A program made the translations under genes and the position numbers. From assembly GCF_040807025.1 (NCBI RefSeq), contig NC_090947.1:7812001-7876000 (forward strand): a stretch of 64,000 bases of DNA, written 5' to 3'. This document shows, piece after piece, positions 888 to 53,768 of this stretch (positions are counted from its first letter, which is position 1; every line of letters starts with the position of its first letter). The notes below the pieces were generated by a model that was not told the DNA's origin, ran no database searches, and saw only the letters and a list, made by a program, of their open reading frames with translations. Source of the DNA: Struthio camelus (Eukaryota; Chordata; Aves; Struthioniformes; Struthionidae).

Positions 888-4601
<3,714 letters not shown>

Positions 4602-11913: not shown

Positions 11914-12118
11914 CAGCGGCATATCTGGGAAGTGACTAAACAGGTTGGGGAAGAAAAGAGCCCACTATTGCATATTTAAGATCTTCCTTTGTAAAGTGAA
12001 GCCCTTCCACCCACCCTGGGACTAGAAGCATCTCTTCCCTTGCTCCCCATTGCCTTCCCATGTGCTGACTTTTGCTGCAGCATAGGCAAGGCAACAGCTT
12101 TTGGAGGTTACTGTCAGT

Positions 12119-12297
12119 CAGGAGGAAACTGAAATCTGTTCCAGGCTCATGTTCAGTTGGTTTCTTATCTCTGTAACCAAGACAAACAATGCCATAAGCT
12201 TGAACAGGAACTAGGACTACTGTGCTTCCATCTGTTACTAGCAGGGATAGAACAGTCTTTATTCCATGACTAGCAGGGTTTTGACTCCTTCCCTTCC
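12119..12297 (-). pseudogene. Alpha-aspartyl dipeptidase relic, C-terminal block
   Basis: On the minus strand an acceptor-like ATGATGCAG precedes a frame reading G-R-E-G-V-K-T-L-L-V-M-E and then a stop. A second frame picks up L-L-V-T-D-G-S-T-V-V-L and ends K-K-P-T-E-H-E-P-G-T-D-F-S-F-L-L. The ending is the characteristic C-terminus of vertebrate alpha-aspartyl dipeptidase (peptidase E, S51). Between the REG and PTE landmarks there are about 125 bp where the family needs about 78, and the motif CCTGCTAGT occurs twice 32 bp apart, suggesting a small duplication that broke the frame. The second frame runs past the usual C-terminus without a stop for about 60 codons. Confidence 0.7.
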
Positions 12298-13697
12298 CTG
12301 CATCATGGGCTATATGTATTAGATTTCTTAGTAAAGTTCGTATGACTAATAACAGGAACAGGACTTCCCTGGTCCTAGAATTCAACAAATTAGGGTCAAA
12401 GTGGCATCCCCCAGTAACACAGCACAGCCTGACTACTGGAGATGTCCCGTGAATAGTAGCTACAGTTCAGGAAATAAGCAGCAATGGATGCAGTGCCACA
12501 GCACTGCCTGGGATAAGTTGGACTTCCCTCACAGTGCTGGCATACTTCCTGCTCCCTTGGAGCATAAAGCAGTATTTGTATTTTCCCCCAAAAGAAATGG
12601 AGGCAAGGGATTAAGGAACTTCTAACTTGGAGGACACACACTCAGTGCCAGGAGTCTAATAGCAGTCTGTTTTCCTTTCTAGCTGAAGGAGGAGATTCAT
12701 TCAGTCAAATTCAAATGAAGCATTTACCTCAAAAACAGCTGTGCTCCTGTTACTCCTTGCCAGGTGTCTTTGTCTCCTTCCACTAACTGCATCGCACCTT
12801 CCTGCAACCCCTTAGATAGGTGGAAACGTTTTAATATTATTTGCAAGCTATTTGGAAGGCCAGAATGCTTGTCATGAGCCAGCCAATGTTTGAAGTGTAG
12901 CTTTTCATGACTACAAACAATTACAAGATTTTCTCAATCGCCAGTTTCTAACAAAGATGCCAGGACAAAATAGGTGAGTTGCCTTGTTTTAGAAGTTAGT
13001 TTTCTTGTGCGCTTAGTTTAGTTTTGCATTTTAAAGAAGGCTATACAACCCCTTTCAGGAGGAAAAGGGGAGGAAAAAAAAAGGGAGGGGGGGAGAAAAG
13101 GAAAATGTGTTTGTTCCCAAATTCCACTACTCTCTCTTTGGTTCTCGTGTAATCTGCCAAGTGACAGCCAGCTGGGTTTGTTAGTGGACAAACTTTATAC
13201 TTCAAGCTCAGAGTGGGCACAGGGACAGGAAGTTCCCAAGGGAGGGAGGGACCCCAAGTTCCTCCTCACTCAGACATACTGCAATTATACACACACTACT
13301 GTGAATAGGCAAATACATCACCAGCCACCCACGATGATTAAAACAGAAGTATGAATGTATAGGAAGGGGATGTATCCTACCATCTACATGCACACCACCC
13401 TCAACTCGCATGTGCTTTATGGCAGCACCAATTTGTCAAGCCACTGGCCTAGTTAATGTTTTAACAACAGGACTCCAGGCATTTAACATGCAGTATGCAT
13501 TTAATTTGTTCTAATCCATTTTCTACAGGTGATGAAAATCCAGTGTTGAAACTGTTAGCAAGAATGTAATCAGTCTTCCACACCACAGTTCTGTCAGGCT
13601 TGTCAGGTAGGGGAGCCCACACTGAAAGCTAGCAAGGAAGCATTTGAAGTGTTGAGGGCTACAGCTGTGAGCTCCTTGACTGGGAGCTACTACTCAC

Positions 13698-13757
13698 CAG
13701 AACCAGAGGGGTGTTTGGTTCTTCATGATACTGGTGAATTCTTTCTTCTCTTGTCTC
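13698..13757 (-). pseudogene. Alpha-aspartyl dipeptidase relic, exon with ETREERI motif
   Basis: A clean 60 bp exon with acceptor cttcctgttgcag and donor gtgagt on the minus strand. It encodes exactly 20 codons: E-T-R-E-E-R-I-H-Q-Y-H-E-E-P-N-T-P-L-V-L. The E-T-R-E-E-R-I ... H-E-E ... T-P sequence follows the H-M-G motif in peptidase E proteins. This piece is intact in frame and splice sites, so it is exon-derived and not a processed copy. Confidence 0.8.
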
Positions 13758-14690
13758 CTGCAACAGGAAGATTTAATGAGTACAGATTTAGCTGCCCAGG
13801 CAGTAAATTAGGCCTTGGAGCCACCCAAGTACCCTGACACTGAGCAGCTTCACAATGTTAAACAAAGCAGGCACTTCCTCCTCAAGCAGAATGCTTTGTT
13901 TGATGAGACTAACGCACTGAAGGAAGCGGCAGTATTGACTGTAGCGCATCCATTGACTTTACCCTGCATCACTAGCAACTGCTGCAAACTGAACAAACAG
14001 AACCCACACAATCCTAACCCTGAAAAGCCCTGAAAACTCACTTCCATTCAATTCATCCAGTGTTTTTTTTTAAACGCCACCTCTATGCACTCGCCCTCAG
14101 AACAACAGCACTGAAGGAGGTGGCGGAAGCAGGATTCCTAAGATGCGCTCTTCATGAAAGAGGGTGTTGAGCCATGGATTTGCACTGACTAAATATCTGC
14201 TTGTTTGTCCTCAAGTAGGAACTACACTGGAGAATTTCCTTCTGCTAACAGATCTGCCGTATTTCTCGAGAGTTACTGCTGCTGAACTGAGCGACAGAAG
14301 TTAAAGAAATCGAACCAGACGGATTTGTTGGTAAGGAAACAGAGGAACACAGCAGGCACTTGGTACAGCGCAGAGCTTACCCCCTCCTCTCAGGGAAACA
14401 GCAAGAGTTATTCATAGGGAGAGGAGTTTATAGGGAGAGGAATTTTTGCTTATCTGGAGACAAGCAAGCTGATTAAGTGAGCATCTACAACTTCTAAAGT
14501 CTAGAAGCACATCCTGATCCTCTATCTCTTCTTTTGTACTCTTATTCTAAATACTTCTGCTAGCCCTAGAAAAAAAACTTTTATTATAAGGAAGAAAGTA
14601 GTTGGGCTGTTACAAGACATGCACTGCAGAAATTGTGCCCCCAGGAACTGACTCCAAACTTGGGCTATTCAAGCATTAATTTCTCCTTAC

Positions 14691-14768
14691 AGTGGAGGCG
14701 TCCATCTTTGCGCTTGATTGTTAGCGTTTTACTTTCCGCTATGCTAGTTAAACTTGCTTGATCAGTAC
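14691..14768 (-). other. Unassigned exon-like block on the minus strand
   Basis: On the minus strand an acceptor-like ggcactgcag precedes an open frame S-T-D-Q-A-S-L-T-S-I-A-E-S-K-T and on through K-R-K-D-G-R-L-H to a gtaagg donor. I do not recognise it and it matches no part of aspartyl dipeptidase. It may be chance. Confidence 0.2.
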
Positions 14769-15321
14769 TGCAGTGCCAGACAGTACTGTAGATTACTAGG
14801 CATGCTCTCTGCAGGGATACTAGTGTTAGGTATTTTTTACATGGCAGCTTTGCATGCAATTGCAGACTCTCCCTGCTCTGATAGTTCCTCCAGATCTTTT
14901 TAAGTCTCTTGAGGTATGTTTAAATCCAGTCTTCTAGATAGAGTAGCAGACCAACAAGCAAGACAACCTATGGCAGAACTTCGCGGAAACACATTGCATT
15001 GTATTGTGCGTTAAGGTTTGAAGCTTACCCCTTAGTTTTTCTCCAATCCCTTGCCAGGTATGAAGCAACAGTATTTCAGACATTGCAAAGTTTCCGTTTG
15101 TGAAAAACACGTTGTTCTAACCCAGTAATACTGTTGCCAACTCATCACTCAAAGAAGAGCTTGGGGAGGCAGTAAAACATTATATTGCCTCCCTGGGATT
15201 TCCAACTGCACTAGGAAGCAGCTGTTAAACATGTTACAGCTTTGTAAAGCCTGGGAAATGCATGCTATCATTACACCTTTGCATCCTGGTTACTGTATTA
15301 ACTCTGGTATGCTTTACTTAA

Positions 15322-15517
15322 GCCCATTTGAGTGCTTTTAAGATCTGGATCCAGGTAGTGGGGGCTGATGTTAAAAGGAACGAAACCTAGGGCCTGGAGG
15401 GAAGGTGGATAAACAATGGGCGTGTCGTTGGTTGTGCTGGTGGTAGCAACACTGGATCCCATGTAAGAAATTCCATCCCGAAAGACAAAAGTAGCAATGT
15501 AGCATGTAACATCACCA
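15322..15517 (-). pseudogene. Alpha-aspartyl dipeptidase relic, catalytic-region exon
   Basis: Minus-strand frame reading [12 protein letters not shown], then V-A-T-T-S-T-T-N-D, then [12 protein letters not shown] and [11 protein letters not shown] ending S-T-Q-M-G. This is the catalytic heart of peptidase E, a cytosolic serine hydrolase that cleaves N-terminal aspartyl dipeptides. The family has G-S-S-A-G-T-N-V-A-T here, the second Ser being the nucleophile; A-G-T-N is missing, with one or two further residues nearby. The catalytic His of the P-H-Y-L-D motif remains. After M-G the expected phase-0 donor reads ttaagt in place of gtaagt. A dead enzyme is inferred. The right boundary, at a cttcag acceptor, is uncertain. 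Confidence 0.8.
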
Positions 15518-16246
15518 CTGAAGACGGTGTTTTACAGCACCTTCTATCAGTCTCAGAGATCCAACAGTCAGATCAGGCTTAGTCCTTCTAGCTCATTTTG
15601 GTTCTAAATTTATTGGTGAAAGGGTAAGAAACAGAAGAGCAAGAGCTCAGGATCTGAGGTGGGCTAGAGGTTTCAGGACATGTACAAGTCTAGTTTGTGC
15701 ATGTCACAGTTGTCAGAGGACCAACTGCTGGATGTCCTGTGTTCCCAGCTCCGTGACCCCCAACACAAGAGAGAACGTTTAAGGTGGTCACTGAAGACAC
15801 TGGACTTTGCTATTAGGAGAGGAGGGACTTGCCTACATTGCAGTTACAGGAAATACCTCAACTAGCTATAAACTAGCTCCTTAGGAGAGTAGATTAGCTG
15901 AAGCTAAGCACTGCGCTGCCACAGCATCGGCTTAATGGTACTGTGACTAGAGTTAGTTCAGGTTTGAACTATGCTGTACAGTGTGTACCCAAAGAGTGCT
16001 GAGGTCCAGTTAATGCACCAGCCCTGCATTAGCGCAGTCTTTATCGCATCTGTGGCCTTTTGAACTCTTAGACTTGGGACACCATTTCACCTAGACCTGA
16101 AATCATCTTCGATGGGAGCTCTGGATTTAATTCTCTTGATGGGAAAGAGCCAGAATAGTTGCAAGCACCCTTAGACAGCAGCCTTTTCTGAGAAGTGCTT
16201 TTGCTCTGTGTAAAATAGAGCACTGGAAGGTCTTTGTGAATTCTAC

Positions 16247-16323
16247 CTTGTAGGGTTTCCAGAATGAGTTGCTGAAGGCAAGGGGAAGCTGCAGTAGTTT
16301 GGGAAGGAGTCGATCTGCATCAT
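16247..16323 (-). other. Unassigned exon-like block (minus strand, fourth of a chain)
   Basis: Minus-strand frame D-A-D-R-L-L-P-K-L-L-Q-L-P-L-A-F then S-N-S-F-W-K-P-Y-K, ended by a gtagaa donor. Two alternative acceptors (gcttaaag or gatgcag) both give the phase needed to join the block at 16721-16865. I do not recognise the protein. Confidence 0.3.
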
Positions 16324-16720
16324 CTTTAAGCAATGACAGTTTCCCCATCTCACCAGCCAAAGCAGATTATTCAAGGTTTCAAGGGGGAGCAAGGTGGCCT
16401 TGATACCTCGTGTACGTTTGAGAGCTTTCCTACTAGCTACATTCCAGAGAACTTTAAAACCATAGGATATGATCTCTACTCTTACCTGCCTCTTGCACTG
16501 GCACTGTCTGTGGATTACACTAGCGAGTCCTGTGGCGTTCTCGAGGTGTCTCCCTGGCAATCCAAGATGAAAGTCTCCTTGTGTGGAGCAGAAGCCACAT
16601 ATCTTAAACAGCAATTATATGTCTCAAGTATATAAGAAATTGTGCAGTATGGCAGATCCTCTACTAGTCAGAGAACTGGCTAGGTAACTAATTTTTGCGC
16701 AGCTGAAGATAGCTACTTAC

Positions 16721-16865
16721 TGGTCTTCATATCATCAATGAATTGTTGCCTTGAGGTTTTCCAAGAGTCCTCATCTTAGTGCATGAGCTGTTTCAGTTTT
16801 TCCTCTTTCAGCTGAGATTCATACATGGAAAGATCCCACGCAAACATGCAAGTATCTGGATGCTG
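16721..16865 (-). other. Unassigned exon-like block with internal stop (minus strand)
   Basis: Acceptor aaattgttcag and a consensus gtaagt donor bound 145 bp on the minus strand. One frame reads Q-H-P-D-T-C-M-F-A-W-D-L-S-M-Y-E-S-Q-L-K and continues E-E-K-L-K-Q-L-M-H, then a TAA, then D-E-D-S-W-K-T-S-R-Q-Q-F-I-D-D-M-K-T. The Lys/Glu-rich composition and good splice sites look like a real coding exon; the other two frames close early. The TAA in mid-exon suggests decay. Family unknown. Confidence 0.35.
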
Positions 16866-17123
16866 CTGAACAATTTGTAAAAATAGGCTATCTTGAGAGA
16901 ATTGATGCTAATATAATCAAATAGCTATCCAGACTTTGGAGAGGGACCCAAACATTTTCTGGGTTTTTTTTTTTGTGTGCAAGGTGCATTGACTGTCTCT
17001 ATATTAAGACAGCCTAGCTGACCTTCCTTCTTGGCAGCTGGCCTTTTCAAACATATTGTGGCTTGCATAAATCTGCCTGAAATTATATAGCACTTGCCCA
17101 GTTGTACGTTGCTGCGTGAGCAC

Positions 17124-17226
17124 CTTGCTTCTATTCTCTTCCATGGGTGGTGGTGCTTCTCTTTCCTTAATGAGATCCAACAAGCCAGAATGGGCTGCTG
17201 CCTTGAAGGGCTCAATGGCACTTATT
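17124..17226 (-). other. Unassigned exon-like block (minus strand)
   Basis: Minus-strand open frame I-S-A-I-E-P-F-K-A-A-A-H-S-G-L-L-D-L-I-K and E-R-E-A-P-P-P-M-E-E-N-R-S-K before a weak gtgctc donor. Its end phase (0) matches the start of the block at 16721-16865. The acceptor gcgaag was chosen partly to keep phase with the block at 18173-18221, so that link is weaker. Not recognised. Confidence 0.3.
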
Positions 17227-18172
17227 CTTCGCAACTCCAGTCAAGGAGGTACCTAAAGTAAATATACCATTTTCTCACTTACTGTACTAAGTGGCACATA
17301 TGTATGCCAGTCTATTTTTGGTTTATTAGCAGACAACCTGTAGCTTGAATACAAAGTGGGCAACACAAAGGAGGCATCTCAACCTGCAAAATACGGGTTC
17401 TGGACACAGGTCGAATCCTGCACTGCTCCAAAGTGGTATTTCAAATTGAGGGGCTTGTTTCTAAGATACTAAACATCATTGTACTTCCCAAGGTGTTGCA
17501 GTCCCATGTCCGGGAACCTGCTCTAGAAGGACAGTTTGGAGCCTGGCAAGACAAGAGCAGCAAAGACTAAATGACAGCCTACTCTGGCCCCAGACTTCTG
17601 TGCACCACCCTGCAAGGGCGGTCTCAGTGTTTCAAGTACGTTAGAGACCAAGATGTAGGATGAGCTTGGGTGTGTCTCAACAAAAACTTCTGCACAAGAT
17701 CCTGCCCTTCTCATTTGGCCTCAGTTGTGCAGTTGTTACCTCCTGCAGAAAAAAGAATCCAGCTTATTTAACATGCTTTTACCATCTACTTTTAATGAAG
17801 CCCTTACAAACTTGCCACACTCAACGTTTCCTATACTCTATTCAGGGTTGTAACCTACTTTGAACAGCAATAAAGCCAGAAGCTTCAGAAGAATGCCGAT
17901 TTGGCTGGCCACGGGCTCGTGCCCTGAGTCACGCTTGCAGCACTGACATTGGCTGTTTGGCAGGAGATATTGCTTTAATGCCCTAGCATGTGATACTAGG
18001 ACTATGCTCAGTTTGAGCACAGTAGGCCTGAATCCCTTAGACCAGATAAAGTGATAGATTCAGCTTCAAGAATCGTGCTTTTACCTCTGAAGTGCTGTTA
18101 AAATGAATAATTTGAAACTCACTGGAGAAACGGTGCCATTGATAGATCTCACCTATTTCCTTCTTGACTTAC

Positions 18173-18221
18173 CGTTCCTCAGGGTAACGGAAGTACTGTT
18201 TTTTATAGCTTCTAATAACTG
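18173..18221 (-). other. Unassigned exon-like block (minus strand)
   Basis: 49 bp between acceptor caggcctag and donor gtaagt on the minus strand, reading A-V-I-R-S-Y-K-K-Q-Y-F-R-Y-P-E-E. It is phase-compatible with the aspartyl dipeptidase exon at 18320-18394, but that protein should continue with a Gly-rich GGGNTF segment here. It is therefore either from another gene or fortuitous. Confidence 0.3.
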
Positions 18222-18319
18222 CTAGGCCTGACTCCTTCATTCTTGTCTCTGCAGTGCAAGCTTTGAGCAAGACTAAGCCAGTGCCCTGCGTAAGCTCTCA
18301 TCAAGCAAGTAAAGCTTAC

Positions 18320-18394
18320 CTATAAACATTGCTTCAGATTTCCTTACAGCTTCCACTGGATCACAAGATTCATGAATGCTGTCCAGCCCATAAC
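18320..18394 (-). pseudogene. Alpha-aspartyl dipeptidase relic, 5'-most recognisable exon
   Basis: 75 bp with acceptor ttcatttaag and donor gtaagc on the minus strand, reading Y-G-L-D-S-I-H-E-S-C-D-P-V-E-A-V-R-K-S-E and A-M-F-I. This is the peptidase E segment normally read as LDS(I/L)HES.DPVEAVRKAEA.FIG. The splice phase (two bases in, one base out) fits the family Gly codons on each side. It is intact. I could not find the upstream exons encoding the N-terminal half, nor the GGGNTF exon that should follow. Confidence 0.75.
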
Positions 18395-18479: not shown

Positions 18480-19420
18480 TACGTGTCTTACAAGACAGCC
18501 GGGGAAACTCTACCGCGTATAACGCCGTACCACGCGCAGTCCTGCGCTGGTGCAGGGGCCTGTATCCGGCTGTGCCCAAGCACGCGTTCGCTTTATGGAT
18601 GCGTTTGCTCAGCGTCTAAAAGAGCAGAGGATTGCCCTGAGCAGGTGCAGGCGGAGCGTTACCACCGAGCGAGAAAATTAGCGGTGGGAAGAAGCTGTCG
18701 GTCTTCAGTCTGGCAGAGAGTCGGGGCAGGCTGCGCCAGCGTTGCTCTAGCACGCGTAGTATTAACAACTGGTCTGAAAAACAGTTTTTATGAAGATTAA
18801 GAGGGTCAGCTTTTAAAATTTTCCCTTGCAGGGAGTCAGCAGAGTAGAGGAAGTGCCCGGAGGCCCAAAAGAAGAGGGACGTGTGGCAGCAGCCATCCCT
18901 CCGCCGGCGAAGGAGCCAAGCGCGCTGCCGGAGGAAGCCAACAGCGGATTATCGCTACAGTAAGGGTCCGAAGTTCCCCGGGGTGGTCAGGGGCAGCAGG
19001 CGGGGGCGTCGCCGCGGGCCGCCCCGCCAGGAGCGTTGCTGTTCACCAGGGAAGAGGTGTTGCCTGCCCGAAACGCCGGAGTTGCCCCCCGAGGAAGCGC
19101 TTGCAGCGGTGCTGGCAGCGGGAGAGACGCCCGGCCCGGCCCGGCCCGGCCCGCCCCTTCCTGCCCCGCCGCGGGGCGGAGGCGGAACCGCCGCCGCCGC
19201 CGCCACCGCCCGGCCCGGCTATGCTGGACTTCGCCATTTTCGCCGTTACCTTCCTGCTCATCCTGGTGGGCGCCGTGCTCTACCTCTGCCCGGTAACGCG
19301 GGGTTTTGGCGGCCGGTGCGGGTTTGGGGCCCGAAGACGCGCCTTGTCCGGCTTTAGTCCAAGAGCCGTGGGGAGCGCAGCCGGGCTGGGGGGGCCCGCG
19401 TGAGGCCGGAGCTCAAGGGG
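18480..19420. promoter_or_regulatory. CYP20A1: CpG-rich promoter region of CYP20A1
   Basis: GC- and CpG-dense sequence surrounds CYP20A1 exon 1, with a GCCCG pentamer repeat near 19129-19153. No TATA box is evident. No ATG occurs from 18841 until the CYP20A1 start at 19221, so initiation there is unambiguous if transcription starts downstream of 18841. The minus-strand relic begins just upstream, so the island may once have served as a bidirectional promoter (inference). Confidence 0.7.
19221..19292 (+). CDS. CYP20A1: CYP20A1 exon 1: signal anchor
   Basis: 24 codons starting M-L-D-F-A-I-F-A-V-T-F and ending L-Y-L-C-P, almost all hydrophobic: the N-terminal membrane anchor. Donor gtaacg, phase 0. 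Confidence 0.95.

Positions 19421-53117: not shown

Positions 53118-53768
<651 letters not shown>

Follow-up and report, generated by a model that had tools for sequence, protein, structure and literature searches.

A decayed alpha-aspartyl dipeptidase gene, very probably a unitary pseudogene, beside CYP20A1 in the ostrich

Layout of the locus

The window, by which we mean the whole stretch of DNA analysed, is 64,000 bases long and was taken from Struthio camelus (parent assembly 1.45 Gb, 262 contigs). The globins of the assembly agree with that source. Four tandem beta-type globin genes are 82-95% matched to the middle exon of a chicken query, and the adult beta chain equals PDB 3a59_B/3fs4_B, which we take to be ostrich haemoglobin, at 146 of 146 positions. 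For the alpha chain the six highest rows are fused double chains (two matches of about 208 bits each in the two alignments displayed), and the best single chain is 3a59_A at 305.6 bits, ahead of the next at 277.6. Exon remnants of a family S51 peptidase lie on the minus strand of the window between the presumed NBEAL1 on the left and the presumed CYP20A1 on the right; five of them (A, C, D, E and F) are clear and one, at the N-terminal end, is probable. The layout is as follows, with residues numbered as in the frog enzyme that served as tblastn query (7c9b residues 6-239, renumbered from 1).

Near 1595-2020, plus strand: presumed 3' end of NBEAL1
11939-12118, minus strand: read-through past the homologous C-terminus, no in-frame stop
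12119-12170, minus strand: exon F, residues 218-234 (DKKPTEHEPGTDFSFLL), acceptor AG intact
12728-12810, minus strand: exon E, residues 190-216 and the first two bases of an arginine codon, with identity at 18 of 28 residues
13698-13757, minus strand: exon D, residues 170-189, open, 15 of 20 residues identical (75%)
15322-15517, minus strand: exon C, open frame, covering the catalytic core as far as residue 169
17684-17742, minus strand: candidate remnant of the exon for the GGGNTF segment, with a good acceptor in phase 1; it encodes GGN before an in-frame TGA and is not significant
18320-18394, minus strand: exon A, residues 60-85 (GYGLDSIHESCDPVEAVRKSEAMFIG), open frame
19073-19132, minus strand: probable N-terminal exon remnant, frog residues 15-34, 9 of 20 residues identical, in a stretch of 72% GC
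19221-19223, plus strand: start codon of the presumed CYP20A1, which is arranged head to head with the dead gene

We take the left neighbour to be NBEAL1, the right neighbour CYP20A1 and a further gene ABI2, and the human order (NBEAL1, CYP20A1, ABI2) is that of the window, the dead gene excepted. The NBEAL1 candidate region gave no usable match to Pfam or PDB. For the exon that follows the start of the presumed CYP20A1, the Pfam p450 score was 21.5 bits, below the cut-off of 22.8, and several P450 chains matched weakly, the best at E 0.025. Sequence like exon 1 of the presumed ABI2 occurs in a GC-rich stretch at 53500-53720 on the plus strand. The CYP20A1 ATG and the probable N-terminal remnant sit on opposite strands with a gap of 88 nt, forming a tight head-to-head pair (19073-19223).

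Homology, exon structure and copy number

The original prediction proposed a search of this DNA with a frog or fish dipeptidase: tblastn of the frog enzyme against the window gave five strong minus-strand matches, colinear with the protein, at E 3e-19 to 2e-4, against a best of E 2.4 in the reversed window. These were the exon A region (residues 49-85 at 18431-18318, E 4e-9), the exon C region (residues 96-169 at 15525-15322, E 3e-19), exon D (residues 170-189 at 13757-13698, E 2e-4), exon E (residues 190-217 at 12810-12727, E 1e-5) and a piece containing exon F (12325-12119, E 3e-5), whose good part covers residues 217-234. We take PDB entries 7c9b and 7ffp to be from Xenopus laevis and 1fy2 to be Salmonella PepE. 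The five clear exons keep the Xenopus residue at 104 of the 147 sites compared, and their segments run in the same order; the S51 core motifs TTND.PIV, PH, ETRE and EG are shared with Salmonella PepE. The X. laevis enzyme is UniProt Q91642, according to the available part of PMC11078827.

Further support came from shuffle tests and profiles. Dinucleotide-shuffled versions of each exon's expected location never scored as well as exons D, E or F (0 of 500 for each), nor did shuffles of exon A itself (0 of 200), while exon C was assessed by E-values alone and by itself matches 7c9b at 7.4e-17. Exon C also matched Pfam Peptidase_S51 (PF03575) at 32 bits against a cut-off of 23.9, which supplies the profile similarity on which the original prediction had staked itself; of the four pieces submitted it was the only one to match, with no Pfam family found for pieces A and D and the block 12119-12274. 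Judged on these matches, the locus belongs to peptidase family S51 by descent. The probable N-terminal remnant scored 50 against a best shuffle of 41 (0 of 500 as good), though tblastn across the whole window gave it an E of just 0.25. Another candidate N-terminus, KHLLLISRS at 19507-19481, had an E of 29 and was rejected, being read as antisense to a CYP20A1 splice donor.

Exon boundaries could be placed at most of the remnants. Exon A has an intact AG acceptor and an intact GTAAG donor, with phase 1 at both ends; its tblastn match extends upstream beyond the exon, which starts only at residue 60. Exon D lies after TTGCAG and before GTGAGT, both sites intact and both ends in phase 0. Exon E, in phase 0 after CTAAG, runs up to a GTAAAT donor and stops two bases into an arginine codon whose third base is supplied in exon F after the acceptor TTACAG. 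For exon C, 15322-15477 is certain and the upstream 40 nt are likely; a 16-residue stretch within these 40 nt scores 11, and 147 of 127,900 window positions, itself included, are as good. Its acceptor has two readings. The acceptor may be intact, as the CAG at 15518-15520, which is consistent with the additional 40 nt; alternatively, the GG directly before the DGISYMG codons would represent a lost acceptor.

The four blocks first described at this locus were therefore correct in part, three of them holding up. The block at 18320-18394 and that at 13698-13757 stand, as does 15322-15517 with the certain and likely portions just given, but in 12119-12297 true homology is confined to 12119-12170: the remainder (12297-12171) matches poorly, a clean TTACAG acceptor ends just before 12170, and 12171-12297 reads best as intron. 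The order of the blocks was right, as shown by the colinear tblastn matches, but exon E at 12728-12810 had been omitted. The claim of several intact GT-AG sites was sound, with canonical introns D-E and E-F and both sites of exon A intact.

Introns D-E and E-F are canonical GT-AG, preserve the frame and have compatible phases, which marks this as a native split gene and not a processed copy. Gaps of hundreds to thousands of bases separate the five clear exons, and the fused exons expected of a processed copy are not seen. Searched against the whole 1.45 Gb assembly at up to E 10, the frog enzyme gave four matches, all at this locus (C, A, E and F), with exon D not among them and with E-values of only 0.6 for exon E and 0.9 for exon F; the S51 profile found one place, which is this locus. 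These searches, which work exon by exon and are not exhaustive, on an assembly that may be incomplete, showed no second S51 copy. With its introns kept and every match in the assembly at one place, the notion that this is a duplicated or processed copy, with a working gene elsewhere, is barely credible. The original reading of a native gene that was lost, as opposed to a processed copy, thus agrees with the colinear exons, the two phase-compatible introns and the lack of any other assembly match. The locus is disabled, bears introns and has no other copy in the assembly searched, as a unitary pseudogene should.

Lesions in the gene

Compared with Xenopus, the ostrich copy has lost the larger part of the N-terminus, the GGGNTF segment, a stretch of six residues just past the catalytic serine, the donor site of exon C and the stop codon. 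No recognisable coding sequence was found for frog residues 1-14 and 35-59. The GGGNTF segment is identical in frog and Salmonella and is a feature of working S51 enzymes, but the exon for residues 85-113 that should contain it was not found at significance in the A-C intron, where 85 of 500 shuffles did as well. Its sole trace is the candidate with GGN followed by TGA, which starts at 17742 and ranks second by score among 237 AG sites.

Exon C lacks six residues relative to frog, AGTN directly past the nucleophile serine and two more further on (12 + 6 = 18 nt). The Ser-Ala-Gly of the enzyme (GSSAG in frog, GWSAG in Salmonella) is consequently absent, and the ostrich sequence runs GSS then VAT. 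The donor of exon C is TTAAGT, a single base off GTAAGT (TT for GT). A GTAAAG is present on the minus strand at 15312-15317, 4 nt past the ruined donor; splicing there would lengthen the exon by 4 nt and break the frame. Past the end of the homology the frame stays open to 11939 with no stop codon, although this could reflect a C-terminal extension peculiar to birds. Other catalytic features persist: the triad His, which we assign to PHYLD (exon C), and Glu, which we assign to GLQEG (exon E), are kept, and the Ser codon survives too. A catalytic triad of Ser-His-Glu is described for the frog and Salmonella enzymes in the available part of PMC11078827.

All lesions are judged relative to the Xenopus enzyme, the sole eukaryotic query and one distant from a bird, and this, together with an exon C acceptor readable as intact at 15518-15520, is what could be said for a functional gene whose missing exons are mis-assembled or have diverged beyond recognition. 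We regard that as highly improbable, as the missing parts include GGGNTF, identical in frog and Salmonella, and as a deletion adjoins the nucleophile and the donor reads TT. On the strength of these sequence features, the gene has very probably lost its capacity to produce the enzyme.

Age and lineage of the loss

Sites identical between frog and Salmonella were altered in the ostrich copy at 16 of 59 positions compared (12 substituted, 4 deleted), against 27 of 88 other sites (Fisher P 0.71), hence there is no sign of invariant sites being protected, as they should be in a working enzyme; the comparison is calibrated on frog and Salmonella alone. The 145 codons of the five clear exons nevertheless contain zero stops and zero frameshifts, and each of the two exon C deletions has a length divisible by three, which is a little tidy for old neutral decay.

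In favour of a locus that still yields a shortened, catalytically dead S51-like protein with a new role, 145 codons stay open across five exons, both deletions keep the frame and two introns are intact. Such a protein would, however, lack a recognisable start exon and most of its N-terminal portion, its exon C donor is lost with the frame-shifting GTAAAG nearby, and its invariant sites are unprotected. We consider it very improbable. Instead, we are confident that the locus is a unitary pseudogene of a multi-exon vertebrate alpha-aspartyl dipeptidase (PEPE/AAD, S51), which decayed in place, probably on the ostrich or palaeognath lineage.

A joint fit to the substituted invariant sites (12 of 55 undeleted) and the lack of stops gave roughly 0.10-0.12 neutral substitutions per site, on the assumption that frog-Salmonella identical sites were fully kept until the loss. 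The lack of frameshifts (with an assumed 0.08 indels per substitution) taken with that of stops favours less than about 0.08 per site, and the exons were detected because they are preserved, which biases the age estimate towards youth. Palaeognaths evolve at around 1-1.5 substitutions per site per billion years. At that rate the joint fit would put the loss at roughly 70-110 million years ago, a rough guess that errs on the high side.

We suggest that a single native S51 gene once stood head to head with CYP20A1, with which it may have had a promoter in common, and was then left to decay. The enzyme would have been lost through an unrecognisable start and N-terminus, a ruined GGGNTF segment, the deletion after the serine, the lost exon C donor and the absent stop. 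Other dipeptidases would presumably cover Asp-X dipeptides, as we infer must happen in placental mammals.

The zebra finch degradome study, in the available part of PMC2865498, reports the gene as present in chicken and zebra finch and absent from eutherians, and a duck muscle proteome table includes an alpha-aspartyl dipeptidase fragment, R0LNL3 (PMC12523418); neither source, in the part available, gives a genomic position. Presence in chicken, zebra finch and duck points indirectly to a loss on the ostrich or palaeognath line, and a loss there, independent of that in placental mammals, is likeliest. The eutherian absence of PEPE concerns the same enzyme lost in amniotes but in a separate lineage, and the gene is reported there as absent, whereas here remnants are still found (PMC2865498, available part). 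More speculatively, and in our view doubtfully, the loss could be an early one on the palaeognath stem around 70-110 million years ago, in which case ratites and tinamous would all be without an S51 enzyme while neognaths keep it; this would be a second independent loss in amniotes, possibly triggered by a change in the promoter shared with CYP20A1.

A parallel is offered by STK33, described as a unitary pseudogene in neognath birds in the available part of PMC4509753, which likewise fell into decay at its own locus in one of the two groups, palaeognaths and neognaths. The direction is opposite: on what these sources report, it is a palaeognath-like genome that has lost an S51 gene recorded in neognaths. 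In the literature searched, where broader topics were covered by top matches only, we found no published report of an S51 dipeptidase as a bird pseudogene. This kind of pseudogene is familiar; the ostrich S51 loss as a particular case is one we have not seen in print in that literature and regard as new. An egg-laying bird without the enzyme would be a natural knock-out, useful for probing what alpha-aspartyl dipeptidase does in birds.
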